Positions 5,690 through 55,370 of a stretch of DNA of 64,000 bases are shown piece by piece. Every line of letters begins with the position of its first letter. The stretch's first letter is position 1. A model generated the notes under the pieces. The model saw only the letters and a list, made by a program, of their open reading frames with translations. It did no database searches and was not told where the DNA came from. The DNA comes from Phorcus lineatus (lineage: Eukaryota; Mollusca; Gastropoda; Trochida; Trochidae): NCBI GenBank assembly GCA_921293015.1, contig OV121091.1, positions 31,108,839 through 31,172,838 of the forward strand. The letters are read 5' to 3'. Position numbers and translations under genes: made by a program.

Positions 5690-8255
5690 TCATTGGAAAC
5701 ATTAACTCATTCGATAAAAACACGTGATGAGAAGGGTTGCAAAGTGTGAACACCAAATCAAGGTATTTTGGGGTTTTAATCTTTTTTTAAAACCAAACTA
5801 TTTTTAATGTGAACCACAAAGTAAAATTTTTATTCCCAATAAATGCTGTCTTAAAATGTTCGTAGCCACATGTTATCGCAAATGATGGTTTGTGAAATAT
5901 AATGGTGTGTTAGGAACAAAGTGATAACCCCCATTAAATGCTTCAAATCATGTAAGAAGTAATTGAAGTTACCGAACGGAACTGTTCCACATTCACATTC
6001 ACATTCCAGAATCAGAAACTTCAAATGTTGAATCAGTGGTTCTGTCCTCATATTCAGTGTCTGATGACAAGTGATCCAATAACCGTTCATCCGAAAAATA
6101 AGGTTTTTATCACTATTTTTCTGAAACATGTCTCCCCTAATGTGGATTGGCATACCTTGAAAAGCCATGTGATAGACATAAGGTAGAGATTCGGAGATAA
6201 TATATTTCAGATAGTGCTCTATGTTCATGTGAGCCACTAAGACATATATCTCTAAAAAGTGATGTTTATGACTTTGTTTCCCTGAGGTCTTCAAATTCAT
6301 GAAACGATTCGATTGTACTAGATCCTTCGTCTTATGTAGGGTAAAATAGTCAAACGATTCTGAAAATTATTTTATTAGCTCAAACGTTTCACGTCGATAT
6401 TAGTTTACCATTCGACCTTTTCACCAGAAACAAAAACTCAAGTCGATATTAAGGATATTTCATAATACCAAAAAAACATATTTTCCCTTATAAATGATAT
6501 GAAATTATGAACGAATGCCCACGACCTAGATAGTGGCTGCATTGCTTGAAAACACGCAACGATCAAACGACATTACAGGATGAGATGCAGTCATTGTTTT
6601 TGTTTGAGACTTAATCTTAGACCTTTTAACGTTTTAACGCATACAAGCATATATGAAATGAGGAAGATTAATGGATTATCAACATTTTTGATATACTTTT
6701 GATAATCCATAAATTCCTTGCCTTCCTCGAACTGCCAACTTCTAGAATGCCACAAACATAGTTTATATGTAAGAATCATATATTGTATTTTATCATTTAT
6801 TGTAGTTTAATATAGAATCATCCATTGTATTTTAAGCGTTTCATGATCATACTCTTATCATTATCATATTTTGATATCCCTTAGTGATTTCAGTCGTTTT
6901 GGGTTTTTTTATTATTATTGATGGCAGGTCAAGTTTAAGATGAATATAAGCAATATTGAATAGGTAGAAAACTAAAGTCGATTTTGGACTGGACTTATAT
7001 AACCAATTTCGACGAGAAAATACGTGCTTTAGTGCCCCTTAGATGTAACGTGTATGTGAACATATCCTAAACTGCTAACAGTTACGCAATCTTGTTAAAA
7101 CATGTCCAATTGTTAAACGTCCTAAAGCGTAATAATGCAGGACGTGTAACACTACAACTTTTTTTAACAACAATGACAGCGATTAATCTAAGCCGAAAAC
7201 GTACACATGTTTATACCAAAACGTTATTTTTTAAACAGAAATGTTTCGTAATTATATGCATATGATTACCTGTAAGATTTAGAAAATTTTAGTTTTGTAT
7301 CCATACATTAAGTGATTCTCGACTTTACTTAATCGGAGGATAGTGATATTTAAGGTGCCGATTCTATTCAGTCTAGAAGACATGAAAATATTCAGAGGAG
7401 ACCTTATTCCTTTGTGACGGCCAGCTACAGTGAAGTCATAAACAATGGTTTTATGTCGTTATACATGACGCTAAACGGCAACTGGCATTGAATCAAACGT
7501 TTCTAGACAAAAGTGTTATATGCACATGTGCTTATATTGATAATATGTCACCATTTATTATAAATGATATTGACACTAAATCTATTTATAATCTTAAAAG
7601 TAACGTATCATTGAAGCTCTCCCAAATATGGTGAAACATATATAAATGACCTACTTATCAATACCAACCTAAATATCTCGTTTCCAAAGTTACATTTGAG
7701 TCATTGGCGCGCGCCATTGTCCGGTTTTCGATAATAAATCTCGACATTTCCCCTGATTATTGTAACGTCGCTAACTGATTAGCATTAAGATAGTAATTTT
7801 CAGAAACAACAACTTCTTGTCGATGAAAGAACATCATTTAAAAAGTGTGACATATTTGATATTCTATTTTTTATAAATCATTTAATCGAGTGTCATTGCC
7901 ATTTCTTGCAAATAAATTCTATAGCAAATAATTGGGCCTTCAATTAGCCCTAGGTTAGCTTTAAATCTCCAATTTTGGTACAGTAGACTCACTAATGGCA
8001 GGACTGTTTCCGGAAACATTACTTGAATAAACATACTCTTGAGTACATTTGAAATTTGTATTTTGTCTTTAAAAACTCGTAATCACATGAAAAATCTATG
8101 TATGTATGCATGTTTGTATGTATGTATTAACATATGGCTGCGCATGACTTAGTGTTTAAGCACATTCAAGAAATATCATGAAATGAAATATATGACATTT
8201 CAATTTCTTTGCAAAAAGACTAAAAGATGTTAAAAAATTGCGTTACTACATGATT
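5690..8255. other. Gene-poor stretch
   Basis: No recognisable exon or repeat. A 149-codon minus-strand reading frame (5851-6300) contains a Cys-Glu-Cys-Glu-Cys run but resembles no family I know and has no splice or promoter support. A short TATG-rich patch lies near 8100-8127. Confidence 0.45.
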
Positions 8256-8265
8256 AGTCTCTTTG

Positions 8266-8566
8266 TTACGAGATTTTTCTCGTTATTACGAGATTTTTTT
8301 TCGTTATTACGAGATTTTTCTCGTTATTACGAGATTTTTCTCATTTTTACGACTTTATTTTAGTTTTTAAAGAGAAAATACAAATTTCACGTTTTTCTCG
8401 TTATTACGAGTATTTTCTCGTAATTACGCCTTTATTTTCATTATTACGACATTAATCGCGTTATTACGACAAAATACATTTTACAGATTGTTCTTTCAGT
8501 CTCGTAATTACGACTTTTTTCTCGTAATTACGAGATTATTCTTGTTATAACGACTTTAATCGCGGA
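8266..8566. repeat. Palindromic ~20-bp tandem array built on CTCGTAATTACGAG
   Basis: The unit TTACGAGATTTTTCTCGTTA repeats head to tail, cleanly from 8273 to about 8342 and then in degenerate form to 8566. Each unit joins TTACGAG to its reverse complement CTCGTAA, so the array is self-complementary at every register. I see no terminal inverted repeats or target duplication. The right end abuts the 3' end of a Penelope-like element. Confidence 0.75.
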
Positions 8567-18400: not shown

Positions 18401-18407
18401 AGATTGA

Positions 18408-18989
18408 TACGGAAGCATCCTAGTGCCACAGTCAAACAATTCTCATCCCCTAAATAGGATATACCATCACCTAATTAGGAGAAACTATCTCCTAACTACG
18501 AGATAGTTATCACCTAATTAGGACTTAGTAATCACCTAATTGGGAGATAATTATCACCTAATTAGGAGTTAGTATCTCCTAATTAGGAGTTAGTATCTCC
18601 TAATTAGGAGTTAGTATCTCCTAATTAGGATTTAATTATCACCTCATTACGAGAAAGTATCAACTAATTAGGAAATAGCTATGTCCCAAGTAGGACTTAG
18701 TTATCCCCCTAATTAGATGATAACTAAGTCCTTTTTAGGACTTTATTATCACCTAATATGGCGTTACTATCAGCTAATTAGGAGTTACTATCTCCTAATT
18801 AGGTGATAGTATCAACTAAGTAGGAGATAGTATCTCCTAATTAGGCGATAATCTAGTCCTAATTAGGAAATAGCTATGTCCTAATTAGGACTTAGTTATC
18901 TCCTAATTAGGTGTTAACTAAGTACAAATTAGGCGTTACTATCTCCTAATTAGGAGATAAAAAAATCGTGGCACTAGGGTGCTTCCGTA
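18408..18989. mobile_element. Non-autonomous TIR element with satellite interior
   Basis: Terminal inverted repeats are 18408-18429 (TACGGAAGCA, T, CCTAGTGCCAC) and 18968-18989; the two 22-bp ends differ at a single base. The element is flanked by a 6-bp direct duplication GATTGA at 18402-18407 and 18990-18995. Between the TIRs almost everything is a degenerate 21-bp tandem array, about 24 units of CCTAATTAGGAGTTAGTATCT, itself palindromic around CCTAATTAGG. There is no coding capacity, so mobilisation would need a transposase supplied elsewhere. The superfamily was not identified. Confidence 0.9.
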
Positions 18990-19257
18990 GATTGACAAGG
19001 CAAACATATTCAGCCATTGTTTAACTTGGAAATGATAAAGCACCATAAGAGAAGTGAATTTTATTGTAAGAATGTATTTTAAAACTTAGTGCTGTGATTA
19101 AGAATGTGACCTGCTACATCAATTTGAACTTCTACATATGATATATACATAAATATTGTAAATTTATTCATTTATTATTTATTTATGTTCAAGAATTTTC
19201 AACAATTGTCGGCATATTATATATATATATTTATTTATTATTATCATTTTATTTATT

Positions 19258-19360: not shown

Positions 19361-19505
19361 ATATTTGAAAATAAAATACTTCAGACGACACTTGCTGTAG
19401 ATATCATTTTAATGATGACTGGATGCGTCGAAATGCGACGCATCCAGTCATCATTAAAATTATATCTACAGCAAGTGTCGTCTGAAGTATTTTATTTTCA
19501 AATAT
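19361..19505. repeat. 145-bp inverted repeat (two head-to-head copies of repeat family H)
   Basis: Arms 19361-19430 and 19436-19505 are reverse complements with one or two mismatches, around a 5-base AAATG loop. The arm contains GATGACTGGATGCGTCG and CTTCAGACGACACTTGCTG. Part of one arm recurs alone at 20165-20256, so the hairpin probably arose from two copies of one repeat joined head to head. A (TA)n tract follows each outer end. Confidence 0.9.
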
Positions 19506-53697: not shown

Positions 53698-55370
53698 TCA
53701 ACATGAGCTCGTCATTGACGCTCTACACCACGCCCTCTGTTCTCGTGAGGAAATATCATAATTCGAAAGGCGAGATCTACCGTCGGAGTCGAAGGTGTGA
53801 GTGATTTGAGTGCTCTGAGTCCAAGTCTTTGACAGCCCCCGTTCTCGGTTCCCGCAGGTTCGTCCACTGAAACAAAGGTAGATCCAGGGATTCGTGCAGC
53901 TGTTGAGGCTTGCTAACAACAGTATGATAGTCATCGATGGACCTGGCGATAGAAGGTAAAGGAATTAATATATACACATGGATATGAAATAAATTTTAGT
54001 TATCAATGGACACAAGGCGTATAAAAGATGCATATTTTCTCAATTTGGTCAGTACTCGTTGGACCACTTTAATAACAATTAAGTAGGATTGTTTAGACAG
54101 TATCAGTAATGGTCTTTTGACACTCTCGACTCAAGAGAAATCAAATTATCGTATAGTTAATCATTTCATCGAATCATCTTATTCATTTAGATATTTATGT
54201 AAAATTCATTCAGTTCTCTGAAATACCAAATGGTATTTCTGAAATACAACGAGTCATAATACTGAGATTAACAGTTAAGGTTAGTAAATATAACTTTTCT
54301 AGTTTAGGTCCATTCCGAAACACAATTAAAAATATTAACAAAAACTTATATGAACAACGCCATTAATGTTAATTCTTACCAGTGAATGGTGCGTTAATGT
54401 CAAAGACTGACCACATTGTAGCAATGAAGAATGGCGACCAGCATATCACATAACATAGGACAACAGCAAGGGTCATCTTGATGGTCTTCACTTTGGACTT
54501 AGACATTGTTCGAGAGTGACCTCTCGGATTTATGGAATTCGATTTGAGCAACTTGGGTTCTGTCTCCTCGTCTGTACGTGATGGCGTTTGACTCTTTCTG
54601 AAAGTGATTTTCCACAGGACATTTTTGTTCTTTGACTTTCTCTTCAGGCGACTGTCCTCCTTGGATCCGGCGCTTACCCATACAACATGGCATATCCGAC
54701 CATAACAGAAAGCTAGTAGAAGAGTCGGCAGAGCGAAGATGGATGTAAATATCCATACGGTGTATAACTTATCGGTCCACAGTGGTTCAAACGTTGCCCA
54801 ACAATTGTACATTCCTGGAGATATTTCCTGTCTGGAGAATATGAATATCTGTGGCATTGAAAACAACAAGGATAAGCTCCATGCTAGCAGTGACATGAGA
54901 TGTACTCTTTTGGGAGACATGGTCTGACTGGTGAGTGGATGACAGATGGACACGTAGCGATCTATAGCAGTCATTACCAGAACATAGGATGAAGCGTACA
55001 TGGCGACCACTTGAAAATACTTCATTGCCCGACAAATAAAATCGTCACCGTAAAAGTGAAAGGTTATATCCCATATGAGTTGTGGTAAAACATTGAAAAA
55101 GCCAACAAAGATGTCCGCCAAACTCAAATGAACAATAAAACACTGCATCCGTGTAAGCTTCTGTCTGCGCAGACGTAGAACAATCAAAACAAAAAGATTT
55201 CCAAATATGGCAAAATATAGAATCACTGACTGGACGGCAATTTCGATCTTAGCGAGTTCTTCATTTCTTGTGTAATGTTGGACAGTTTCGTTTGTTGTTT
55301 CATTCTCACCAATCTCCGACATATTCTGAATGCTTTCGTATTCTGTGTCGTTGTATGTTTCCATTTTCAC
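53698..55370 (-). CDS. Vasopressin/oxytocin (conopressin)-type G-protein-coupled receptor, 2 coding exons
   Basis: Coding exons on the minus strand are 55370-54380 and 53942-53698, giving 411 aa. The splice sites are CACTG|GTAAGAAT and TATCGCCAG|GTCC, phase 1. It is a class A receptor. The N-terminus has four N-glycosylation sequons (N7, N16, N23, N27). TM1 carries N58. TM2 has LSLAD (D86). The ECL1 block FYGDDFICRAMKYFQVV has disulfide C113. TM3 ends in DRY (137-139). ECL2 has NCWA (C190). ICL3 is long and basic (~230-296). TM6 has CWSPFF (310-315), and TM7 SLNSCTNPWIY (342-352) carries NPxxY. The GDDF..KYFQVV, NCWA and SLNSCTNPWIY signatures are those of vasopressin/oxytocin-family receptors, which normally couple to Gq. 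The ligand would be a conopressin-like nonapeptide (inference). A strong acceptor (poly-T then CAG, 55425-55423) upstream of the ATG implies a further 5' UTR exon. Confidence 0.95.

Follow-up and report, generated by a model that had tools for sequence, protein, structure and literature searches.

The array of palindromic units that fills a short transposable element at positions 18402–18995 of the window (the whole stretch of 64,000 nucleotides of Phorcus lineatus DNA analysed here; assembly GCA_921293015.1, contig OV121091.1, positions 31,108,839 to 31,172,838, forward strand) was probably not taken up as cargo; it would instead represent the left and right subterminal arrays built into a transposase-bearing parent. 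The element was divided into the following parts:

18402–18407, plus strand: left target-site duplication (TSD), GATTGA, by direct reading of the window
18408–18429, plus strand: left TIR, T-type end TACGGAAGCATCCTAGTGCCAC, then AGTCAAA; genome and shuffle tests
18430–18444, no strand: short spacer from left TIR to array
18445–18959, no strand: array of 24 palindromic units with core CCTAATTAGG, steps of 21–23 bp (mean 21.57); TRF and unit calling
18960–18967, no strand: AT-rich spacer from array to right TIR
18968–18989, minus strand: right TIR, C-type end, TACGGAAGCACCCTAGTGCCAC on the minus strand
18990–18995, plus strand: right TSD, GATTGA

Each part of the description given in an earlier note on this DNA held: the exact duplication of GATTGA, the pair of 22-bp TIRs with a single mismatched base, and the interior made up of palindromic units of the 21-bp type. 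The duplications (18402–18407 and 18990–18995) are identical, the TIRs (18408–18429 and 18968–18989) are one base apart, and TRF reported a 21-bp array over 18445–18959 (23.9 copies, 72 % matches), in which 24 units were called. No match to the TIR pattern, with up to three mismatches allowed, turned up in 100 shuffled versions of the window. The copy is 582 bp long plus the 6-bp target duplication, and the reading-frame list contained no ORF of 150 aa within it; it is thus short, bounded by TIRs and a TSD, without coding capacity and present in many copies, as a MITE should be. Its termini (TACGG..CCGTA) fit the TAYGG..CCRTA (TA..TA) ends of the IS3EU/GingerRoot superfamily, and the window family shares the 6-bp TSD. 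The accessible text of two papers gives TAYGG..CCRTA for fungal IS3EU ends and usually 6 bp for IS3EU/GingerRoot TSDs (PMC10045372, PMC12730594), and it was this combination of ends and TSD that provided the clue to the superfamily. On the features tested, the window element would be classed as a non-autonomous MITE of IS3EU/GingerRoot type by its ends and TSD.

The host genome (957.8 Mb, 74 contigs) was searched with the window TIR, as had been proposed in the earlier note, and a large family was recovered: 513 matches with up to three mismatches, against five for the reversed control. An exact 30-mer including AGTCAAAA gave 144 matches (control, 0), and at least 26 facing TIR pairs, 234–866 bp apart, were present among 100 exact ends listed. 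The TIR-bounded copies ranged in length from 138 to 813 bp. TSDs were surveyed in 22 distinct copies with both ends, one of which was cut by the end of its locus, so that 21 were assessable. Exact 6-bp duplications at the junctions were found in 14 of the 21, and five of six bases agreed in a further four; an exact 6-bp repeat was displaced by one base in L022 (CCAATC) and by eight bases, a repeat of the TIR tip, in L019 (CAAGAT), and L044 had no TSD. Three of the 21 (L029, L030, L037) lie between common flanks, as if a single insertion had been duplicated. Beside L038, an empty second version of the site lies 0.4 kb off; its identity to the filled one is about 73 % over 280 bases, and it has CATATC only once at the junction. 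The exact duplications and this empty sister site bear out the reading of the element as a transposon copy with a 6-bp TSD.

The single base by which the TIRs differ is a conserved label of the element's two ends. Among the 26 listed pairs, 23 were GCATCC/GCACCC, three GCATCC/GCATCC and none GCACCC/GCACCC; at least 23 mixed pairs of 26 would arise under random pairing with a probability of about 3e-5. In the copies that were read, mixed T/C ends were found in 18 of 22 and two T-type ends in four. Mutation rates of the TIRs were not used as evidence, because the copies had been picked by TIR match. Three exact C-type ends at C17:47044359, 47063991 and 47083622 are spaced 19,632 and 19,631 bp apart, which suggests a large tandem duplication carrying the MITE.

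Array and TIR were found to travel together, as had been claimed. Pairs of exact cores at a distance of 21 bp, TANTA lying between them, occurred at 533 genome sites (control, 0); the pattern is palindromic, and both strands count the same sites. The distance between array and TIR was tested on contig C1, the sole contig with a complete site listing, where 48 paired-core sites formed 23 clusters. An exact TIR lay within 1 kb of 17 of these (random expectation, 0.015). Arrays separate from the TIRs, which the earlier note had named as counting against its proposal, were partly encountered: six of the 23 clusters had no exact TIR within 1 kb, and one of the six (L035) carries a TIR with one mismatch.

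The order of the units is fixed, counting from each end of the copies. Over the first five units of 16 copies, agreement from the T end was 0.873 at equal unit index versus 0.779 at unequal index; from the C end the effect was small (0.847 versus 0.820). Such a fixed order implies that the copies go back to a master array whose units were already ordered, and that internal deletions and exchanges account for the differences among them; the array is not re-grown anew in individual copies. Between the consensus units, core differences numbered 0/150 at both ends and differences at outer positions 52/150 and 39/150, and within-index variation was 0.055 in the core versus 0.144 outside it at one end and 0.047 versus 0.132 at the other. 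Part of the core conservation follows from the method, which recognised units by their resemblance to the core, and the low variation was not taken to prove selection, as units exchanging sequence with one another would produce it too.

In the window array the steps between the 24 units measure 21, 22 and, once, 23 bp, and 329 of 370 unit steps in 22 copies were 21 or 22 bp. Adjacent units of the window array lie on nearly the same face of the helix, and to this extent the helical phasing proposed earlier stood. The array drifts from a strict 21-bp period by 13 bp over 23 steps, which is more than one turn at 10.5 bp per turn; the units are consequently not strictly in helical phase, and that part of the claim was ruled out for the window copy. 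In L051 and L054, near-identical full-length relatives described below, 18 of 18 steps were exactly 21 bp.

Evidence in favour of built-in arrays was obtained from transposase genes. The profile of the integrase core PF24764 (rva_4) was searched against the host genome and 14 control genomes and gave 18 matches in the host and none in the controls. Upstream DNA was read at six of the 18 loci, taken from among the top-scoring matches (ranks 1, 3, 4, 5, 6 and 8), and in all six a palindromic array with a period of about 21 bp was located between a left TIR with a TAYGG end and the transposase gene. The loci were grouped as follows:

Family L051/L053/L054: TIR TACGGAAGCCAAATAGGGCC; core TTGAAATTTCAA
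Family L052/L056: TIR TACGGTGGCATATTAGGGCC, with one mismatch in L052; core TTGAAATTTCAA
Family L055: TIR TATGGAAGCGCATTGCTGCC; core TCTAATTAGA, its CTAATTAG centre common with the window element

L051, L053 and L054 are 97–100 % identical, so the read loci stand for three families, plus one by position only. A 20-bp plan, TAYGGWRGCNNNNTRSKGCC, fits the window TIR and the TIRs of the sister families (the L052 variant lay outside this test). Facing exact TIR pairs delimit 7,673 bp in L051, 7,626 bp in L054, 8,766 bp in L053, 11,771 bp in L056 and 9,070 bp in L055. The right end was read in one full-length element, that of 7,673 bp: it bears the same kind of array and the same TIR, the TSD CATTTG is found on left and right, and the alignment of the element's two ends has 228 identical positions, 39 mismatches and 23 gap positions. 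A TATAWA motif begins 5–19 bases past the array at each of the six loci (background, 0.085 per 60 bases), in the forms TATAAATG, TATATAAAG and TATAAAAC in the three families, and this position makes the left array the upstream part of the apparent transposase promoter. In L056 a 383-bp MITE of that locus's own TIR family sits at TATATAAAG, with ATAAAG on either side. Stop codons interrupt the transposase match in L055 and at a further locus, on contig C15.

A transposase locus with the exact window TIR was sought and not found among the TIR ends compared. The nearest transposase match lay 200 kb from an exact C-end (among 100 listed of 112) and 16.5 kb from a T-end (among 79 of the T-ends). 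Twenty loci of about 9.9 kb each around unpaired TIR ends (L031–L050) were examined as autonomous partners and rejected, none of the 18 PF24764 places lying inside any of them. Open frames were listed in five of the 20 (L032, L035, L036, L041 and L050); those of L035 and L050 are reverse-transcriptase-like by eye and were read as later insertions. The autonomous partner anticipated in the earlier note was therefore met with only in the form of relatives with the same 20-bp TIR plan. At C9:23798264–23810889 ends from two related TIR families occur in alternation, repeating about every 1.9 kb; this is perhaps a tandem array of nested elements, and possibly a nascent satellite.

The first exon of the L051 protein (294 residues) matched PF24764 with an E value of 2.3e-29 and rve weakly (4.1e-6), below the rve cut-off. 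D135, D194 and E235, with 58 and 40 residues between them, are read by us as the putative catalytic D..D-40-E. A Pfam search gave no match for the N-terminal part in L051 and L055, and in L052 weak sub-threshold matches to HTH_32 and a Tc3-type HTH (E 0.006). Searches of viral contigs for the transposase returned nothing, and those of solved structures gave E values of 0.1 and 0.57 only. The genome search with the L051 protein found 90 matches; among the weaker of these, most span only about residues 5–60, which indicates that the N-terminal domain also occurs alone. This lone domain was seen in dozens of places, often as open frames of about 113 aa, and may be a separate gene or transposon family.

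Four cores were distinguished across the families, CCTAATTAGG, TCTAATTAGA, TTGAAATTTCAA and CGTAATTACG, with a similar period. Read outward from the dyad, the half-sites of all four core types have a common pattern, TTNNNN followed mostly by GATA or CTTA: TTAGGA+GATA in the window element, with GTTA and CTTA variants; TTTCAA+GATA or CTTA in L051–L054 and L056, with variants CTTG, CTTT and GAAA; and TTAGAT+GATA or GAAA in L055, with fewer TTAGAA+CTTT. The inner ten to twelve bases of the units are kept as a dyad, partly by construction. TAATTA is contained in CCTAATTAGG, TCTAATTAGA and CGTAATTACG and is missing from TTGAAATTTCAA. Because its half-site pattern is similar, a further array in the window became a candidate for the same class:

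8240–8560, no strand: second palindromic array, core CGTTATTACG / CGTAATTACG, mostly 20-bp steps

Its half-sites are TTACGA+GATT or CTTT. No TIR or TSD was found around it; it is probably the decayed array of an element from a different family within the superfamily. Pairs of CGTAATTACG cores 20 bp apart occurred at 29 genome sites (control, 0), and clusters of them flank the PF24764 match at C15:14785343, 4.8 kb before and 4.2 kb after it; about 0.003 clusters would be expected within 5 kb of any of the 18 matches (16 clusters counted, a slight overcount). These arrays lie 4 to 5 kb from the transposase, farther than in the read loci, and a search for 21-bp steps found no array at the C15 locus.

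Two other features of the window were recorded. A near-perfect 70-bp inverted repeat at 19361–19505, with five bases between its arms (99 % complementary) and AT microsatellites beside it, looks like another hairpin MITE. An uninterrupted rhodopsin-type GPCR frame of 333 aa (7tm_1, E 5.4e-48) occupies 54369–55370 on the minus strand.

The earlier note had regarded the array as satellite cargo; in such an account, which corresponds to the model of miDNA4 in Xenopus, a MITE would have taken up a pre-existing satellite and spread it. The TIR-bounded copies are indeed mostly array, the array varies in length (copies of 138 to 813 bp) and six of the 23 C1 clusters are without an exact TIR. This account is nevertheless very unlikely in our estimation, since similarly built arrays form part of the ends of the transposase loci themselves in the sister families, the unit order is fixed from each end, and the cores differ by family within a single half-site pattern; the cargo claim was accordingly not supported. 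A second possibility is that the arrays bind host transcription factors, such as homeodomain proteins on TAATTA, and serve as enhancer, promoter or decoy. The presence of TAATTA in three of the four core types (CCTAATTAGG, TCTAATTAGA, CGTAATTACG) agrees with this, as does the position of the left array directly upstream of the TATA-like motif and the transposase gene. Two transposase families, however, have TTGAAATTTCAA in the same architecture, so that one host factor would not serve all, and the array is also found at the right end, away from the gene (one right end read). We regard a host factor as unlikely; the suggested homeodomain decoy is only weakened, as three cores contain TAATTA and the fourth lacks it.

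The palindromes might also act through structure, as cruciforms, as hairpin RNA or by hairpin-driven slippage that amplifies the array. The array strand folds far better than its shuffles (z −19.8), as any palindromic array must. The outer five bases across the dyad, however, matched no better than expected, all eight arrays lying within 1.7 sd of shuffled halves (L052 highest), and the stable unit order does not suggest constant re-amplification. As the outer halves do not co-vary, it is mainly the inner 10–12 bp dyad that is kept; selection for cruciforms or hairpins, as had been put forward, is weakened despite the good folding, and we give a structural role little chance of being correct. 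A dyad kept inside unmatched outer halves points to protein half-sites and not to selected hairpins.

The arrays are probably subterminal protein-binding platforms, most likely for the transposase. They would be cis elements of the superfamily in this genome, with dyad sites repeated in tandem every two helical turns or so, immediately internal to the TIRs, and their cores would be bound by a dimer, most likely of the transposase through its N-terminal part, or alternatively by another element-encoded protein. Bound in this way, the arrays may help in the loading or pairing of the ends and may also control the promoter of the transposase gene. Loss of the middle of a full-length parent, with the transposase gene, would have joined the left and right subterminal arrays as a MITE, which could then have multiplied by keeping all sites. 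A MITE made of two joined platforms would explain why hundreds of ends are found versus few full-length relatives. A joint change of the core and the DNA-binding domain would account for cores that are specific to a family while the outer modules recur.

Subterminal transposase-binding repeats are known from Ac/Ds and En/Spm, in which many short sites lie just inside the TIRs. By analogy, the elements described here would likewise have many short subterminal sites; a regular palindromic array of 20–22 bp with a family-specific core sets them apart. The resemblance to IS3EU/GingerRoot consists of the TA..TA ends and the 6-bp TSD. Autonomous members of that superfamily encode a DDE transposase of IS3/IS481-like type; the sister families have a PF24764 core with weak rve, and the window copy encodes nothing. 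Palindromic subterminal arrays are unmentioned in the accessible text of PMC10045372 and PMC12730594, and no description of them in IS3EU was found in the literature searched; they are provisionally considered a new feature of IS3EU. MITEs with internal tandem repeats are described, in the accessible parts of PMC12628747 and PMC9659126, from Donax trunculus, from Xenopus (miDNA4 and Xstir) and as pearl elements of oyster and clam. Like the window family, these are short, TIR-bounded, non-autonomous copies with an interior repeat of variable length. In those accounts, as far as accessible, the repeat was captured by or born inside the MITE, whereas here it is present at the ends of sister-family transposase loci and follows a cross-family half-site pattern. 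The oyster satellites CgiSat35 and CgiSat47 (monomers of 690 and 129 bp) are annotated as IS3EU, and the 21-bp oyster satellite CgiSat43 has no transposon match in the same table (PMC8268682, accessible part). Compared by description, CgiSat35 and CgiSat47 likewise connect tandem repeats with IS3EU in a marine invertebrate, and their monomer sizes differ.

A broader, tentative reading, which we hold to be possible and rather doubtful, is that IS3EU elements use a modular code: tandem palindromic platforms of near-constant period, with recurring outer GATA/CTTA modules and family-specific inner bases switched along with the DNA-binding domain of the transposase, would have had these inner bases changed in concert across some 15–30 units as new families arose. 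Were this true, the change of a whole platform would be a family's escape from cross-mobilisation, and MITEs would be platforms set free. Invertebrate MITEs with tandem repeats are commonly treated as vehicles or cradles of satellites; the repeat type described here can be traced to the ends of sister-family transposase loci, upstream of a TATA-like motif. Should the arrays be platforms for the transposase, they would provide a direct answer to the question of why MITEs contain satellites, and the switching of cores would be a readable record of the separation of transposon families.
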